From positions 1 through 26,118 of the IMG/VR virus record IMGVR_UViG_3300027833_000195: 26,118 bases of DNA; one strand, written 5' to 3'. This stretch comes from a virus. Position numbers and translations under genes: made by a program. Each line of letters opens with the position of its first letter. The first letter of the stretch is position 1. The notes beneath the pieces are model-generated. The model was given only the letters and a program-made list of their open reading frames with translations, did no database searches and was not told the origin of the DNA. Below, in pieces: positions 1,214-25,152 of this stretch.

Positions 1214-1246
1214 TTGTTAATATTAAAATTAATTATTGTATATTTG
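1214..1246 (+). promoter_or_regulatory. Rightward promoter of the fibre operon
   Basis: TTG (1214-1216) and TATATTTG (1239-1246), spaced by 22 bases, fit the Bacteroidota -33/-7 pattern, the -7 box being a full match followed by CA. The predicted start near 1251 leaves a leader of about 14 bases before the ATG at 1265. A near copy of the leader (CTAATCAATATAAA) occurs at 1132-1145 (CTAGTCAATATAAA). Confidence 0.75.
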
Positions 1247-1736: not shown

Positions 1737-3248
1737 ATGGCACAAACAACATATAATAAGGATTTAAATGTATTAGGTACAATAAATCTGAATAAAAATG
1801 AACTGCAGCAAGCAGTATTACAAATTAGTTCAGTTGCCCCAACTAGCCCTGTAGAAGGTCAGATGTACTATAACAGCGATGATGAAACAGCATATATCTA
1901 TAGATCAAGTAGCTGGCTAGATCTAGGGCAGGGTGGTATTACAAACAGAGACTATGGTGATATTATAGTAAGTAATAACACATTAACATGGACTATTGAT
2001 TCTAGTGCTGTTACCACAGGTAAGATACAGAATGATGCTGTAACTTATTCTAAGATACAAAATGTATCAGCTAATAATGTATTCCTTGGTAATGACAATG
2101 GTACAAATCAAGGTGTACAAGAGATCACTGCTTCTCAAGCAAGAAATATACTTGGTATAGATGCTAATGCAAATAATTATGTTCACCCTAATCACACAGG
2201 AGATGTAACTTCTGCAGGTGACGGAGCGACTACGATAGGATCTAATAAGGTAACGTATGGGAAGATACAGAAAGTAGCTGGTAATAATGTATTATTAGGT
2301 AATGATAATGGCGCTGGATCAGATGTACAAGAACTATCTAAAACAGCTGTACTTAGTTTACTTAATGTAGAAGACGGTGCAGATGTTACTGATGCTTCAA
2401 ATGTAAATGCAGCAGGAGCTGTAATGAACAGTGATACTTCTACATCTGCAATGAACTTTGTTATTGATGAAGATAACATGAACTCTAACTCAGCAACTAA
2501 AGTACCAACTCAACAATCTGTAAAGAAATATGTAGATGATGCTATTGTTGGAGGGATGAGTTATAAAGGTGCGTATAATGCATCTACAAATTCACCAGCA
2601 TTAGATACAGGCTCACCTGCAGTTGGTCTGGGTGATACGTATACAGTAACAGTTGCTGGTAACTTCTTTAGTATACCTGTAGAAGTAGGTGATGTACTTA
2701 TTTCTGAGATATCTGGAACTAGTGCAGCAAATGTAGCAAACTGGACAATACTACAAAAGAACTTAGATGGTGCAGTAATTGGACCTACAAGTGCTGGTAA
2801 TAATAAAGTAGCATTCTTTAATGGTACTACTGGTAAATTAATAAAAGATAATAACATATCACTTACTGGGTCTAACACTGGTGATGAGCCAAATGCTAGT
2901 ACAACAACTGCTGGTATTGTAGAAGAGGCAACACAAACAGAGGTAAATAATGGTACTGCAACAGGTTCAACTGGGGCAAGACTATTTGTTAATCCATCTA
3001 GATTAGGGTTAAGTAGTTCATTATCAAATGCTGTAAGATTTACAGGAGAAATTGGAAATGGAACTTTGACTTCTATTCCAGTTACCCATTCAATAGGTAG
3101 ACAATTTGTGTCAGCACAAGTATTCTATTCTGACTCTCCTTATGAGCAGGTAGAATGTGAAGTACAGATGACTTCTACTACAGTAACTACTTTTATATTT
3201 AATGTGGCTCCAACTACTGACGAGTACACAGTAGTAATAGTAGGATAA
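1737..3248 (+). CDS. Tail fibre protein, 503 aa
   Basis: This long protein is rich in Asn, Thr, Ser and Val and has no Cys. An N-terminal module (VLQISSVAPTSPVEGQMYYN, residues 28-47, followed by AYIYRSSSWLDLG) is typical of phage fibres. Internal repeats follow: ITYGKIQ/TYSKIQ-like and NNVFLGNDNG/NNVLLGNDNG occur twice (nt 2073-2099 and 2283-2309). A KVPTQQSVKKYVDDAI segment marks the shaft. The last ~75 residues (FTGEIGNGTLTSIPVTHSIG onward) match a recurrent beta-sandwich tip module of fibre and baseplate proteins. It starts 22 bases after the previous stop, so both are probably co-transcribed. A terminator hairpin with an internal promoter follows. Host receptor binding is inferred. Confidence 0.85.
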   Translation: MAQTTYNKDLNVLGTINLNKNELQQAVLQISSVAPTSPVEGQMYYNSDDETAYIYRSSSWLDLGQGGITNRDYGDIIVSNNTLTWTIDSSAVTTGKIQNDAVTYSKIQNVSANNVFLGNDNGTNQGVQEITASQARNILGIDANANNYVHPNHTGDVTSAGDGATTIGSNKVTYGKIQKVAGNNVLLGNDNGAGSDVQELSKTAVLSLLNVEDGADVTDASNVNAAGAVMNSDTSTSAMNFVIDEDNMNSNSATKVPTQQSVKKYVDDAIVGGMSYKGAYNASTNSPALDTGSPAVGLGDTYTVTVAGNFFSIPVEVGDVLISEISGTSAANVANWTILQKNLDGAVIGPTSAGNNKVAFFNGTTGKLIKDNNISLTGSNTGDEPNASTTTAGIVEEATQTEVNNGTATGSTGARLFVNPSRLGLSSSLSNAVRFTGEIGNGTLTSIPVTHSIGRQFVSAQVFYSDSPYEQVECEVQMTSTTVTTFIFNVAPTTDEYTVVIVG

Positions 3249-3259
3249 TAATAAGGTTT

Positions 3260-3309
3260 ATCACTAGATTTTTTGTATATTTGCAATAAATCTAGTGATT
3301 TTACTTTTT
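3260..3309 (+). terminator. Terminator hairpin enclosing a promoter
   Basis: A perfect 12-bp inverted repeat (ATCACTAGATTT 3260-3271 with AAATCTAGTGAT 3288-3299) has a 16-base loop and is followed by a T-rich tail (TTTTACTTTTT, 3299-3309). It sits 11 bases after the stop of the 503-aa fibre gene, as expected for an intrinsic terminator. The loop holds the next promoter's -7 box. Confidence 0.75.
3276..3283 (+). promoter_or_regulatory. Promoter -7 box TATATTTG inside hairpin loop
   Basis: A full match to TAnnTTTG, followed by CA, lies in the loop of the hairpin. A TTG at the -33 distance is not evident. Five bases past the final G predicts a start at 3288, the first base of the right stem arm, giving a leader of about 37 bases before ATG 3325. 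RNA made from here lacks the left arm and cannot form the terminator. Confidence 0.65.
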
Positions 3310-3324
3310 AACTAAAAAATTAGT

Positions 3325-4815
3325 ATGGCAACAAAAAAGATATTTACAAACCTTATATCAAATGGAAAGATAGACGCCAATGAGTTTAGGCCTGGGGATG
3401 GTACAAATGGTAGATTCTTTAGTGACAGTAATGGTAGAATGGCCTTTGATAGTGGTCAGGTTTACATAAAGTCTGGAGTTGGTACATATTACAACTATGC
3501 TGCAAACCAATACCATGGAAGTAGTAGTGGAACTATTCATAGATTTAGAGGTAATTCCATAACTGCCGACAATTGGAGTATAGACACTTCAGGTAATATT
3601 ACTGGGAATTCATTTATAAAGTCAGGAGGTACAGCCAATCAATTTTTAAAAGCAAATGGTACTGTAGATAGTAGTGTTTATATAACTGGATATACTGAAA
3701 CAGATACCTTAGATACTGTTGCTGATAGAGGTAACAGTACAAATCAAACTCTTACATCAACAAATGGATTAGGTTTTAGAGTTGATTCATCAGGGGCTGC
3801 CAGAATTGAAATAGATGCAGGAGGAACTAACTCGGCATATATAAGATTAATGGATACTGGGGCTACAGCATGGGATATATCATCTTATAATGGTGGTAAT
3901 TTAGAATGGAAACCAGGAGGAGGGCAGACTAATAAAATGATTTATACTTCTGCTGGTGTACTAACCACAGGAGATGGTTTTACTTCCACAAAAGGAAATT
4001 CAGCTTATGACTGGGGAGATCATGCTCTAGAAGGGTATCTTACAAGTGCATCTACTCAAAGTAAGTATATAAGAAGTGATGTAGATGATTCAACCTCAGG
4101 TAATCTTACCATGAGTAAGACTTTTCCAAAATTAATTTTAGATAGCCCAGGGTCTGGTGATAACTGGACTTCTCAAGGAGCACAAATTAGTCTTGGTGAA
4201 TCAGGTGGAGGATCAGCTTCTTTACACTTAACTTATAATGGTGGAGGTATAGGACATATTGGTATGGGATCATTATCAGGTACTGGAGTCCCATCTTTCT
4301 CAGCAATAAGGTTTAATTACGCTTCAAATGCTATTTATTTTTATAGTAACCCTTCTATTGCAGGAAATACAAATTGGCATTCAGGTAATGATGGTGCTAG
4401 CTCAGGGTTAGACTCAGATAAGCTAGATGGACAACATGGTACGTATTACCTAGATTATAATAACTTTACAAACACACCTGTAATACCAGATATAAGTAGT
4501 CTTGTGGATGGACAAGGTACTGGAGGAAGAATTACTAAATGGACAGATAGTAATAGTTTAGGTAACAGTATTATGTATGAGGTTAGTAATAAGATAGGAA
4601 TAGGTGTAGCATCACCAAAAGCTGCGTTGCATGTAAATGGAGCAGTAATAGTTGGAAATGACACAACAGCAGCAAGTGCAGACTTAGCAGGAGCTTTAAG
4701 GTATTGGGATGAAACAGATGGTGGAACAATAACTTCTTATGTAGATATGTGCATGAAGGGTGGATGTGGATACTCGTGGGTTAACATAGTGACTAATAGA
4801 ACACTTTGTCTTTAA
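3325..4815 (+). CDS. Tail fibre protein, 496 aa
   Basis: This fibre protein shares modules with the next gene. The N-terminus reads MATKKIFTNLISNGKIDANE. A motif AYDWGDHALEGYLTS (around residues 227-241) and a block SGLDSDKLDGQHGTYYLDYN (from about residue 359) both recur in the following 1001-aa protein. The C-terminal ~95 residues (KIGIGVASPKAALHVNG ... GALRYW ... SYVDMCM ... WVNIV) match a common end module of flavobacterial phage fibres. The last 30 residues contain three Cys (C at CM, GGC and TLCL). Own promoter upstream; 22 bases to the next gene. It is a paralogous partner or alternative receptor-binding protein; which fibre contacts the host cannot be read from the sequence. Confidence 0.85.
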   Translation: MATKKIFTNLISNGKIDANEFRPGDGTNGRFFSDSNGRMAFDSGQVYIKSGVGTYYNYAANQYHGSSSGTIHRFRGNSITADNWSIDTSGNITGNSFIKSGGTANQFLKANGTVDSSVYITGYTETDTLDTVADRGNSTNQTLTSTNGLGFRVDSSGAARIEIDAGGTNSAYIRLMDTGATAWDISSYNGGNLEWKPGGGQTNKMIYTSAGVLTTGDGFTSTKGNSAYDWGDHALEGYLTSASTQSKYIRSDVDDSTSGNLTMSKTFPKLILDSPGSGDNWTSQGAQISLGESGGGSASLHLTYNGGGIGHIGMGSLSGTGVPSFSAIRFNYASNAIYFYSNPSIAGNTNWHSGNDGASSGLDSDKLDGQHGTYYLDYNNFTNTPVIPDISSLVDGQGTGGRITKWTDSNSLGNSIMYEVSNKIGIGVASPKAALHVNGAVIVGNDTTAASADLAGALRYWDETDGGTITSYVDMCMKGGCGYSWVNIVTNRTLCL

Positions 4816-4837
4816 AATAAAATAAAAAAATAAAAAT

Positions 4838-7800
4838 ATGTCAATAGGAAAATATTATTACGGAGCAAGATTTGTCACAAACGGTGGAGATAACACTGAG
4901 TATGTGATGGGTGACGGAACACTAAATAATGGCAGTGGTATTAACACAACTATAGGTACAGATGATGACTTAACAACAAGTGGAGCACTTGTGGTAAATG
5001 CTATAAATTTAACAAACGGAGTAGTAACAGCACATAGTACAAGGACATTGACATTAGCTCAATTAGGTTATACTGGAGATGCTAACGCAAATGAATACGT
5101 GTTGCCTTTTACTGACAATAGCGCTGACTGGAATACAGCCTATGGCTGGGGAGATCATTCACTAGCAGGATATACAGGAGACCAAGATTTAAGTGGATAT
5201 CTACTAAACACTACTGATACATTCACGGGAGCATTAACAGTCAATGGAGATATAAGAGGTTCAGGACAACAATTAATATTGAATGCTGGTGAAGCTTATG
5301 CGTATGCAACAGGACAAACAGGTGAGCATGTTTATATCAATTCAGAACAAGGTCTTGAAGTTAATTCAGAGACAAATAATTGGCAAGGAAATGGATGGGC
5401 AGATAGAAAAACAGCATTACTTAGAGGAGATTTACTTAGATTAGATGGAGAAAGTCTTACTAAGACAAATATCCAAAACTTTAAAGCAGCATATTTGTGG
5501 GGAGATCACTCAGTAGAAGGCTACCTAACTAGTGCAGACATATCAGCATCGAATGGATTAACGGAAACTGGAGGCGACATAGAGCTAGGAGGATCATTAT
5601 CAAGCGCTACGTTAATAAACACAGCTTCTGATAGTCTTTCTATATACAATTCTTCCTCAGGAGGACTTATACAGGCTAAAGGTTCAGCTGCGCATGCTTC
5701 TGGATTTGGATCAGCTGTGTTTGGATTTGGAGATTCTTCAGGATTCCTTGAAGAAGGATTCAATGCTTTCTCTGATAAATTTGAATTTGTTAGTGATAGT
5801 GGAAAAGGTATAGAATATGATGCTGATTACAGTGCAACATACACTACTAGAAGTTTAGTAGATAAAGGATACGTAGATGCAAATGGATACATATTGCCTT
5901 TTACTGATAATTCAGCTAACTGGAATACTGCTTATAGCTGGGGAGATCATGCTCTAGCAGGATATAACACTACTATTGGTACAGACACTGACATTAACAC
6001 ATCAGGATTTAATGTTATAGATAATATTTACATGACTGATGGAGTTATAACATCTACTGGTTCAAGAGCTTTATTAAATTTAAGTATAGAAGATACTAGA
6101 GCAGCAGAAAAAACACCAAATGATTATTTATCAAAAGCATTATCGCTTGATTTTACAGATGAATTTGGTTCACTAGGTTCATGGTGGAGTGGGATCACTG
6201 TAAAAGGTTGGGAAAATAATTATCAAGCATGGCAGTTAATTGGTGGGTCTGGTACAGGTGCAAACACCTCACTTTATTTTAGGCAAGGGGTAGGAACTTC
6301 TTGGGGAGCAATGAATGAAATATGGCACAGTGGTAGTGATGGAGCAGGCTCAGGATTGGATGCTGATAAATTAGATGGACAAGAAGGAATTTATTATTTA
6401 AACTATAATAACTTTACAAATACTCCAACAATCCCTACAGCAAGAACTGATGAGGAAATTAGAGACGTAGCTGCAGCACAATGGATTGATGGAACAAATA
6501 CTACAGTTGTGGTAAATGATTCAGCAAATACTATTAAAATCAATGCTACAGGTGGAGGATCATCTCTTTGGTCTTCAGATACCAACGGTATAACATACAC
6601 AGCAGGTAATGTGGGAATAGGTGGGGCTTCACAATCAGGATTTGATTTGAGAGTAGTGGGTCAGTCAAGATTTAATGATGATGTTAGATTTGATGGAGAT
6701 GTTTCAGTTGCTGGTGGCAACTTAGTAGTAAATAATTCACTTTTAGATGTAAATACAGTAGCAGGAACAGCAGGTCAAATTCTTTCTTCAGAAGGACCTG
6801 GAGGAGGAGTTGAATGGATAGACGCTCCTTCAGGGGGTGGTGGTGGTGTTACTGCAGTATCTGCAGGTGATGGATTAACTGGTGGAGGAATAGGTGGATC
6901 TGTTACTTTAGATGTTAATGCAGGTACAGGACTTTCAATTAGTTCTGACAAGGTAATTGTTAACCCAGGAGATGGACTTACGACTACCTCTACCCAAGTT
7001 ACAGTAGATAATACTGTTGTAAGAACTTCAGGAAATCAAACAATATCAGGGACTAAAGCTTTTACAGGTACTATAAATCTTGATGGTAATGGAGGGTCTG
7101 GAGGAGTAATAAAAGATTATAGTGGATCAACAGGTGCATTTAACCAAGTACTTACTTCAAGAGCAAATGGAGGTGTAGAATGGAAAACTGCGTCAACAGG
7201 TGGTTCAAGTGTTTGGTCTCAAGCTACAGGATTAGTATATATAAACGACACTGCTAATCCAGATAAAGTGGGAATAAATACTAGTAGCCCTGATGGGTGG
7301 TTGGAAGTTTCAAAAAAGACAGCAAGTGGCACTACACCTACTTTGCTATTAACTCAATCCGATATTACTTATAATTCAAGTAATGACAACTTTTTGACGT
7401 TTAAGTCTAAAAGAACTTCTGTTAGTACAGTTTATTGGAATGTAGGTCATGACGTAGGTGGAAATAAATTTGTAATAAATTACAGCACAACTACAAGTCC
7501 TTTTGCTCCAACAGGATCAAACTTTGTTCTTGATATTAACGGAAACTTATCCCTAGAAGGAAATGCAACAGCAACTAATTTCATACTTAGTTCAGATAGA
7601 AGATTAAAAGAAAACATAAAAGATGTTGATTATGATCAACATATAAAAGCTGATTGGAAAACCTTCAATCTAAAGAAAGATGACGAAGAAAAAAGATATG
7701 GTGTTATAGCTCAAGAGTTAGAAGTTAATCACCCCGAGTTTGTTAATACTGATGAGGAAGGATATAAGTCAGTTAAATATATTGATTTACTTATAGCTAA

Positions 7801-7843
7801 AATAGCAGAGCTAGAAGCTAGATTAGAAAAATTAGAGAAATAA
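4838..7843 (+). CDS. Large tail fibre with S74 self-cleaving chaperone, 1001 aa
   Basis: This is a modular fibre that ends in a peptidase S74 intramolecular chaperone domain (about residues 910-1001). The signature SDRRLKENI starts at Ser919, and Lys924 lies five residues on, the spacing of the Ser-Lys pair in endosialidase-type S74 domains. In that family the domain trimerises the fibre, then cuts itself off before the Ser. The end (YIDLLIAKIAELEARLEKLEK region) is a coiled coil, as usual for the family. Internal repeats: residues 32-77 resemble a block after residue 378; LPFTDNSADWNTAYGWGDHS (from residue 89) recurs from about residue 353; WGDHSVEGY recurs near residue 223; a GLDADKLDGQEGIYYLNYNN block matches the 496-aa fibre. 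The start ATG follows an A-rich leader with no separate promoter. Confidence 0.9.
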   Translation: MSIGKYYYGARFVTNGGDNTEYVMGDGTLNNGSGINTTIGTDDDLTTSGALVVNAINLTNGVVTAHSTRTLTLAQLGYTGDANANEYVLPFTDNSADWNTAYGWGDHSLAGYTGDQDLSGYLLNTTDTFTGALTVNGDIRGSGQQLILNAGEAYAYATGQTGEHVYINSEQGLEVNSETNNWQGNGWADRKTALLRGDLLRLDGESLTKTNIQNFKAAYLWGDHSVEGYLTSADISASNGLTETGGDIELGGSLSSATLINTASDSLSIYNSSSGGLIQAKGSAAHASGFGSAVFGFGDSSGFLEEGFNAFSDKFEFVSDSGKGIEYDADYSATYTTRSLVDKGYVDANGYILPFTDNSANWNTAYSWGDHALAGYNTTIGTDTDINTSGFNVIDNIYMTDGVITSTGSRALLNLSIEDTRAAEKTPNDYLSKALSLDFTDEFGSLGSWWSGITVKGWENNYQAWQLIGGSGTGANTSLYFRQGVGTSWGAMNEIWHSGSDGAGSGLDADKLDGQEGIYYLNYNNFTNTPTIPTARTDEEIRDVAAAQWIDGTNTTVVVNDSANTIKINATGGGSSLWSSDTNGITYTAGNVGIGGASQSGFDLRVVGQSRFNDDVRFDGDVSVAGGNLVVNNSLLDVNTVAGTAGQILSSEGPGGGVEWIDAPSGGGGGVTAVSAGDGLTGGGIGGSVTLDVNAGTGLSISSDKVIVNPGDGLTTTSTQVTVDNTVVRTSGNQTISGTKAFTGTINLDGNGGSGGVIKDYSGSTGAFNQVLTSRANGGVEWKTASTGGSSVWSQATGLVYINDTANPDKVGINTSSPDGWLEVSKKTASGTTPTLLLTQSDITYNSSNDNFLTFKSKRTSVSTVYWNVGHDVGGNKFVINYSTTTSPFAPTGSNFVLDINGNLSLEGNATATNFILSSDRRLKENIKDVDYDQHIKADWKTFNLKKDDEEKRYGVIAQELEVNHPEFVNTDEEGYKSVKYIDLLIAKIAELEARLEKLEK
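5102..5173 (+). repeat. Fibre module repeat, copy 1
   Basis: A 72-base stretch coding for LPFTD..WNTAY.WGDH...GY is repeated at 5894-5965 with about ten base differences. Shorter versions of its WGDH...GY end occur near 4011-4036 in the previous gene and near 5499-5523. Such near-identity in neighbouring fibre genes allows recombination between modules. Confidence 0.8.
5894..5965 (+). repeat. Fibre module repeat, copy 2
   Basis: Second copy of the 72-base module at 5102-5173, in the same reading frame of the same gene. It is followed by NTTIGTD and a GVITSTGSR stretch that also has a counterpart near the N-terminus, so a longer unit seems to have been duplicated with its parts rearranged. 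Confidence 0.8.
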
Positions 7844-7844
7844 T

Positions 7845-8354
7845 ATGCCAGCACCACCAGCAAATACAGTACCCAATACGACTACATTTACATTACAAAA
7901 CGTAGTAGACTCTGTGAACCCAACAACAGATGATTTAGTAGATTGTTTTGCAGATGCAGACTCTGCTCAGTTTGACCCTGCTTACGAAGGAAGTAAAAAT
8001 CAACTATTAAATTTTAGAAACTACGGTAACCAAAGTACAGGGACAGGGGTAACTGCTTTAGACAGTTCAAATTATGTTATAGGATCATATAAAACACTTC
8101 CTGGTGGAACCCTTGGTTATAAACCTGCTACGCAAAAGGCTACAGATGGAAGTGGTACAGGCTTTACAGCGAACCTATATATAGATGCTGTAAATGTTAA
8201 TGGAAGAAATCAATATGTATGGAACGGTAACTACCAGATTACAAATGCAGGAAGTGGCTATGCTGTAGGGGACGAAATAACATTTGCAATAACAGGTATA
8301 TTACCATCAAATTCAATTATTGATGCAAGAGGATATGTTGACAGTGTTGGTTAA
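7845..8354 (+). CDS. Fibre-associated virion protein, 169 aa
   Basis: This protein begins one base after the stop of the large fibre. The N-terminal half (TTTFTLQNVVDSVNPTTDDL ... FDPAYEGSKNQLLNFRNYGN, to about residue 62) resembles a module found beside fibre genes in flavobacterial phages. The YEGSKNQLLNFRNYG segment is the most characteristic part. The second half (from about residue 68) is Gly/Asn-rich and predicted beta (KATDGSGTGFTANLYIDAVN, then GSGYAVGDEITFAITG), like small tip domains. A fibre tip, chaperone-like partner or attachment protein is possible; the position in the fibre operon is the main evidence. A new promoter follows. Confidence 0.6.
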   Translation: MPAPPANTVPNTTTFTLQNVVDSVNPTTDDLVDCFADADSAQFDPAYEGSKNQLLNFRNYGNQSTGTGVTALDSSNYVIGSYKTLPGGTLGYKPATQKATDGSGTGFTANLYIDAVNVNGRNQYVWNGNYQITNAGSGYAVGDEITFAITGILPSNSIIDARGYVDSVG

Positions 8355-8371
8355 AATATATTAATTTTTTC

Positions 8372-8402
8372 TTGGTAGTTGTTAATAATTATATTAACTT
8401 TG
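8372..8402 (+). promoter_or_regulatory. Rightward promoter of the packaging block
   Basis: TTG (8372-8374), a 20-base spacer and TAACTTTG (8395-8402) followed by C make one of the best Bacteroidota promoters in the window. The predicted start near 8407 leaves a leader of about 19 bases before ATG 8426. It probably drives the chain of overlapping genes up to TerL. Confidence 0.8.
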
Positions 8403-8425
8403 CTTAATATAAAAATTAAAAGCAA

Positions 8426-15840: not shown

Positions 15841-15862
15841 TAGCCATTAGGCATAAATTAAA

Positions 15863-15888
15863 AATAATTAAGTTTTTTCTTAATTATT
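15863..15888 (+). repeat. AT-rich inverted repeat upstream of the scaffold promoter
   Basis: AATAATTAAG (15863-15872) pairs perfectly with CTTAATTATT (15879-15888) around TTTTTT. It follows the portal stop and covers the place where the next promoter's -33 region would lie. It may be a weak terminator of portal RNA or a binding dyad. The same arrangement, hairpin then promoter then ATG, is seen at 25856-25905. Confidence 0.5.
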
Positions 15889-15902
15889 ATTAATATTTAG
15901 TT

Positions 15903-15910
15903 TATATTTG
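15903..15910 (+). promoter_or_regulatory. Promoter -7 box TATATTTG, start on ATG
   Basis: A full consensus -7 box is followed by CACT and then the ATG at 15915. The predicted transcription start (five bases past the G) falls on the A of that ATG, so the mRNA would be leaderless. If translation starts at Met20 (15972) instead, the leader would be about 57 bases. Confidence 0.65.
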
Positions 15911-15914
15911 CACT

Positions 15915-25126: not shown

Positions 25127-25152
25127 GGGGCTCTTATAGGGGGCCCCTTTAA
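25127..25152 (+). terminator. GC-rich intrinsic terminator after the long fibre
   Basis: GGGGCTC (25127-25133) pairs with GGGCCCC (25141-25147), with one G-U, around a 7-base loop, followed by TTTAAT. It sits nine bases after the fibre stop and is the most GC-rich spot in the window. It closes the virion transcript at least in part. No promoter is seen before the next gene, so some read-through is likely. Confidence 0.8.

Follow-up and report, generated by a model that had tools for sequence, protein, structure and literature searches.

Leader RNAs whose folding depends on where transcription began are known from bacteriophage T4. In the leaders of gene e (lysozyme), soc and I-TevI, an inhibitory hairpin is left without its 5' part in transcripts made from the late promoter (PMC3014915, PMC2988022). 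The promoter lies within or beside the hairpin, such that RNA arriving from upstream folds both arms, whereas RNA from the embedded promoter has no 5' arm and escapes; as the hairpin hides the ribosome-binding site (RBS) or the AUG, control is exerted on translation. Folding depends on origin in the same way at the ends of IS10 and IS50, mobile elements that are protected from outside transcription: RNA entering from outside folds an inverted repeat, which RNA from the internal promoter cannot do, and translation of the transposase is the step affected. A promoter located inside the loop of a terminator was not found described in the open-access literature, which is not proof of absence.

The element analysed here occupies positions 3260-3309 of a 26-kb virus record, IMGVR_UViG_3300027833_000195 (34.7% GC), the whole 26,118-nucleotide stretch of which is referred to as the window. 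The 50 bp are probably a terminator and a promoter fused into one element, which separates two late fibre-region transcription units of a crAss-like phage with a marine Bacteroidota host. By analogy the element would work like the T4 gene e and I-TevI leaders. It falls outside that class because the AUG is not hidden: the hairpin ends at 3299, leaving the RBS and the AUG (3325) of the downstream gene exposed, and, with a T-tail and a position 25 nt before the AUG, it would act on transcription rather than translation. The promoters also differ, the T4 late promoter being TATAAATA while that of the window is the Bacteroidota sigma-A box TAnnTTTG.

The late gene module of the phage lies on the plus strand and comprises fibre genes (1737-7843) and the genes for terminase (11240), portal (13432) and the major head protein (17090). 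The assignment to crAss-like phages is based on the terminase, which displays 57% identity to Flavobacterium phages FpV4/Fpv3 and ∼32% to gut crAss-like phages. The host is most likely a marine flavobacterium; we infer both the host and the marine origin. In crAss-like phages the host RNA polymerase is believed to transcribe the middle and late genes (PMC8375218). The hairpin is housed in the 76-bp gap between a 503-amino-acid tail/fibre gene (1737..3248), which matches tail PHROGs and whose stop codon is 11 nt before the hairpin, and a 496-amino-acid tail-fibre gene (3325..4815), which matches tail-fibre PHROGs and would have a 5' leader of 37 nt if transcription started at 3288. The next plus-strand gene (4838..7843, 1001 amino acids) also matches tail-fibre PHROGs, contains a Peptidase_S74 chaperone domain and is presumed to belong to the same transcription unit as 3325..4815. 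These matches bear out the initial description of the neighbours, made from the sequence alone, as consecutive fibre genes. The upstream unit (gene 1265 together with the first of the fibre genes) has its −7 box, TATATTTG, at 1239..1246 on the plus strand (promoter P1239), the top matrix score in the window, and the following unit (gene 8426 onward) has the plus-strand box TAACTTTG at 8395..8402. Upstream of the late operon, positions 398-1264 form a stretch of ∼870 bp without a convincing gene, which contains a repeated motif (AAAGAAAGAAAGAACCAAAGAAAGAAAC ... GAAAGAAACTTC) and islands of 74-79% identity in divergent relatives. The stretch has no match in Rfam and could be an early/late control region, a promoter for a virion RNA polymerase or an origin.

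The plus-strand hairpin consists of a left arm, ATCACTAGATTT (3260..3271), and a right arm, AAATCTAGTGAT (3288..3299), that pair perfectly; the order of the element is ATCACTAGATTT TTTGTATATTTGCAAT AAATCTAGTGAT, followed by TTTACTTTTT (3300..3309), an interrupted T-tail with 8 T in 10 bases. Positions 3260-3299 are the sole perfect inverted repeat of at least 12 bp (loop 3-30) in the window, against a mean of 0.055 such repeats in order-1 Markov copies of it. The fold of 3260-3309 has a predicted energy of −18.8 kcal/mol (z −8.38), and none of 200 shuffles was equally good. The 12-bp perfect repeat proposed in the sequence-only reading is thus present as described, but the T-tail that accompanied it in that reading is broken, and a d'Aubenton-Carafa-type score of about +0.4 is borderline, placing the hairpin 36th, close to the median, among 85 putative gene-end terminators from the window and its relatives. 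A simple terminator scan of the window did not list the hairpin because the loop limit of the scan is 3-8. The apparent loop of 16 nt is not open; RNA folding adds 5 further pairs, TTGTA (3273-3277) with TGCAA (3282-3286), capped by the tetraloop TATT. The TATATTTG box, which had been placed in the loop, does lie between the arms at 3276-3283; through the TTGTA/TGCAA pairing, however, half of it is within this upper RNA stem. Elsewhere in the window a GC-rich hairpin, GGGGCTCTTATAGGGGGCCCC (25128-25148), with a poor T-tail follows the 985-amino-acid gene.

Sigma-A promoters of Bacteroidota carry TAnnTTTG at −7 (PMC7366714, PMC9723704), and the plus-strand sequence TATATTTG at 3276..3283 conforms to this published consensus. 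A promoter matrix was built from 142 intergenic TAnnTTTG boxes before genes of relatives, the window being left out of the training set. The best plus-strand scores in the window, at 1239, 8395, 3276, 13409, 25893 and 15903, are all at gene starts. Box 3276 ranks third among all window positions and, as the matrix includes the box by construction, also third in the fairer comparison with the TAnnTTTG boxes of the window. The surrounding plus-strand 13-mer TTGTATATTTGCA (3273-3285) is shared with P1239 (1235-1247) and with promoters of relatives (L178/L249, L239 and L188), and the 18-mer TTTTTTGTATATTTGCAA occurs in at least 120 stretches of genome contigs, mostly Bacteroidota by title among the matches listed. 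In the intergenic DNA of the relatives TAnnTTTG is ∼10 times commoner than scrambled motifs. A scan for sigma-70 promoters, which is uninformative for the Bacteroidota phylum, gave matches no commoner than in shuffles. No −33 element (TTG/TTTG) is present 17-23 bp upstream of the box. Such an element was reported in B. fragilis and not found in F. johnsoniae (PMC7366714); since it is weak or undetected in Flavobacterium, it is not treated as class-defining across the phylum, and its absence here only lowers confidence. Based on these sequence comparisons, 3276-3283 is a credible Bacteroidota sigma-A promoter. The promoter-like box and the terminator-like hairpin each exceed chance expectation by a clear margin. 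Mapped promoters of F. psychrophilum have the box at −12 to −5 (PMC9723704), a spacing that puts the predicted start at A3288 on the plus strand, the first base of the right arm, in agreement with the position first proposed. Relatives also conserve two late promoters of the window: gene 8426 is preceded by TTAACTTTGCTT(CAG) (8355-8425) and gene 15915 by TTAATATTT-N-TTTATATTTGCA (15841-15914). Their extended boxes differ, possibly reflecting two promoter classes.

The consequence of this geometry was examined by folding the two RNAs in silico. Read-through RNA folds at −19.2 kcal/mol, while RNA from 3288, given that start, folds at −1.4 kcal/mol, which fits the original proposal that upstream RNA forms the hairpin and RNA started at the element cannot. 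The loss of folding does not depend on the exact start, as any start after ∼3272 loses the left arm. In the proposed mechanism, polymerase from P1239 would transcribe both arms, and the resulting RNA would form a hairpin of 17 pairs followed by a U-rich stretch, such that most transcripts end near 3300-3309. The host polymerase, carrying the Bacteroidota primary sigma factor, would bind TATATTTG, which the arms enclose, and initiate at 3288. The RNA so made would have no left arm, could not adopt the terminator fold and would continue into the fibre genes (3325-8354). A single 50-bp element would, in this way, stop the RNA of its neighbour and let its own through, and insulation of the two units may be its purpose.

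No homologue of the 3260-3309 junction was found among the relatives searched. None of the 26 terminase-linked relatives searched has the fibre cassette, and the two fibre proteins, searched in the records of 28 relatives, matched only the fibre-linked G023/G024. Exact arms occurred twice in viral contigs; both matches were rejected as relatives, one being coding DNA and the other an unrelated locus without TAnnTTTG between the arms. Relatives of the fibre genes themselves were mostly domain matches in unrelated phages, with no matching junction. The arrangement of a box between paired arms was also sought across 166 non-redundant promoters from the relatives and the window, using as a null the exchange of left flanks between promoters. 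Perfect stems of at least 11 bp across the box were observed 4 times against 0.34 expected, and stems of at least 9 bp with the right arm within one base of the predicted start 5 times against 0.77; the excess includes AT-only arms and the window case that seeded the search, and the independent evidence is smaller than these numbers. AT-only arms (L182, L203, L206 and others) were not counted as independent cases because, according to the flank-swap null, a T-rich spacer facing an A-rich leader explains much of their pairing.

The best other nested case, and the longest nested repeat, is in G006 (L254 2052-2100), where perfect 18-bp arms surround the box (TTAAATTTGCAG / TAAATTTG) and the right arm starts at the predicted +1. 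The repeat follows a gene with a C-terminus that, in our reading, is like a fibre tip (Pfam gave no match) and precedes a small membrane-protein-like gene; it has no T-tail and shares no arm sequence with the window repeat. The G005 orthologue of the preceding gene has no intergenic gap after it, and the repeat is thus not conserved there. The expectation that relatives would carry TAnnTTTG within inverted repeats before fibre genes is consequently only weakly borne out, by this G006 repeat, which lacks a T-tail and is not a homologue of the junction. Given that an 18-bp nested repeat can occur without a T-tail, nesting is not always a sign of termination. The same extended box was also examined at 122 other viral sites and 119 bacterial ones; none shows a clear nested terminator and one (L358) has a weak partial overlap, indicating that the arrangement is rare.

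Other overlaps of terminator and promoter are widespread in the crAss-like relatives, and, judged from sequence, the window element may represent, in compact form, a type of stop/start overlap present in several versions in related phages. In the tandem form, found after the major head protein gene, the T-tail is followed by the box after 0-20 nt (L314, L338/L340, L320, L218 and L311/L318). A conserved tandem element before one late gene has the order AACATCTCTAT-ATAGAGATGTT-T-run-TTTTG-TATATTTGA, the terminator tail being fused to the promoter (L303 16531, L325 7692, L326 18035, L286 18002, L328 12199, L285 9366 and L342 17951). L083 has a tandem terminator-promoter at a place other than the fibre junction. 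Tandem terminators are common among the sites with the same extended box, with 24 upstream terminator hairpins at the 122 viral ones and a terminator within 10 nt at 15 of the 119 bacterial ones, although the query motif holds a T-run and therefore favours tandem sites. These junctions (T-tail into TTTTG-TATATTTG) resemble the window in that one intergenic element ends and starts units with the same box and a T-run; in the tandem form, however, the hairpin is wholly upstream of the box, whereas the window has the box enclosed by the arms and a hairpin that extends past +1.

The box-first form is found behind the major capsid gene and has TATATTTG overlapping the left-arm base of a terminator (L194 16698, L179 9359, L188 15700 and L192 12979). 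Among these four, the clear cases, pairs 3 to 8 of the arms vary on both sides with pairing kept, while the box is fixed and its TG stays paired. Variants are found in L206, L209 and L267, that of L206 without a T-tail. RNA started at a box-first element loses part of the left arm and folds at −2.7 to −7.2 kcal/mol, compared with −17 to −20 kcal/mol for the full hairpin, although L209 keeps −15.0. The likeness to the window is that the −7 box overlaps the hairpin and own-start RNA loses left-arm sequence; the difference is that the box is at the base of the left arm and a short remnant hairpin is kept, whereas the box of the window is in the loop. In the window itself, no terminator/promoter hairpin follows the capsid gene. 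In the third form listed for the junction behind the head protein gene, the box TATCTTTG is itself the left arm and the AUG is in the right arm of one hairpin, at 11600-11660 of L273 (FpV4, NC_041872; gene annotated as HNH endonuclease gp14) and at the corresponding start codons of L309 (∼8918) and L328 (∼8624), with one compensatory T-A to C-G change. The arrangement is that of T4 I-TevI and gene e, and by analogy this is likely a crAss-like parallel, in a cultured phage, of I-TevI regulation, in which read-through RNA would hide the AUG and own-start RNA would not.

Two other interpretations of the window element carry real weight. The hairpin may be an ordinary intrinsic terminator in which TATATTTG is a chance product of AT-rich sequence, the downstream fibre genes being read by leakage. 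The absence of a −33 element, the presence of TAnnTTTG in ∼5% of 16-nt stretches of the relatives' intergenic DNA and the failure to find another case at fibre junctions are consistent with an accidental box. Such an origin is nevertheless unlikely for a sequence that ranks third in the matrix, the other top plus-strand matches all being at gene starts, and whose extended 13-mer is identical to that of P1239 and of promoters in relatives; moreover, the 76-bp gap contains no other box that could serve the downstream fibre genes. Conversely, the promoter may be real and the repeat not a terminator but a regulator site, or a read-through hairpin that does not terminate, as in G006. The longest nested repeat, that of G006, has no T-tail, AT-rich arms of 9-13 bp flank the box in several further relatives, also without T-tails, and the interruption and borderline score of the window tail point the same way. 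In the window, however, 8 T in 10 bases are at the right distance after a repeat located directly behind a stop codon and between two units, half-sites 28 bp apart are a poor fit to the usual dimeric operator, and the nested repeats of the window and G006 have no arm sequence in common. This second interpretation is judged as unlikely as the first.

The stable stem directly after the stop codon could also protect, or be cut to process, the 3' end of an mRNA within a through-transcript, the promoter being incidental or weak. The G006 repeat, with no T-tail, would fit such a role, which leaves both the promoter-quality box and the start of the right arm at +1 unexplained and is thus considered improbable. 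The location of inverted repeats around a promoter before fibre genes of a Bacteroidota phage is also reminiscent of known phase-variable loci; recombination between the arms would here flip the box and switch the fibre genes on or off. It is highly improbable that the window element works in this manner, as 16 bp between the arms would not allow two recombination sites to synapse, and no related locus was found with the arms in either orientation. A fused terminator-promoter remains the preferred explanation of the repeat, its T-rich tail and the box together.

More tentatively, the element may be a terminator that exempts its own promoter, stop and start being combined in one palindrome and the fate of the RNA being set by its origin, and the nested, box-first, tandem and AUG-hiding overlaps at late junctions of crAss-like phages could be variants of one punctuation system. 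If so, 50 bp would suffice, without a protein, to read the origin of an RNA, stopping that from upstream and passing that made locally. Such elements would explain how neighbouring units (fibres, capsid and head proteins) are expressed at separate levels in the packed late operons of crAss-like phages, and would extend the logic of T4 gene e and I-TevI from translation to termination. Cousins of the element are carried by cultured relatives, the Flavobacterium phages FpV4 and kin.
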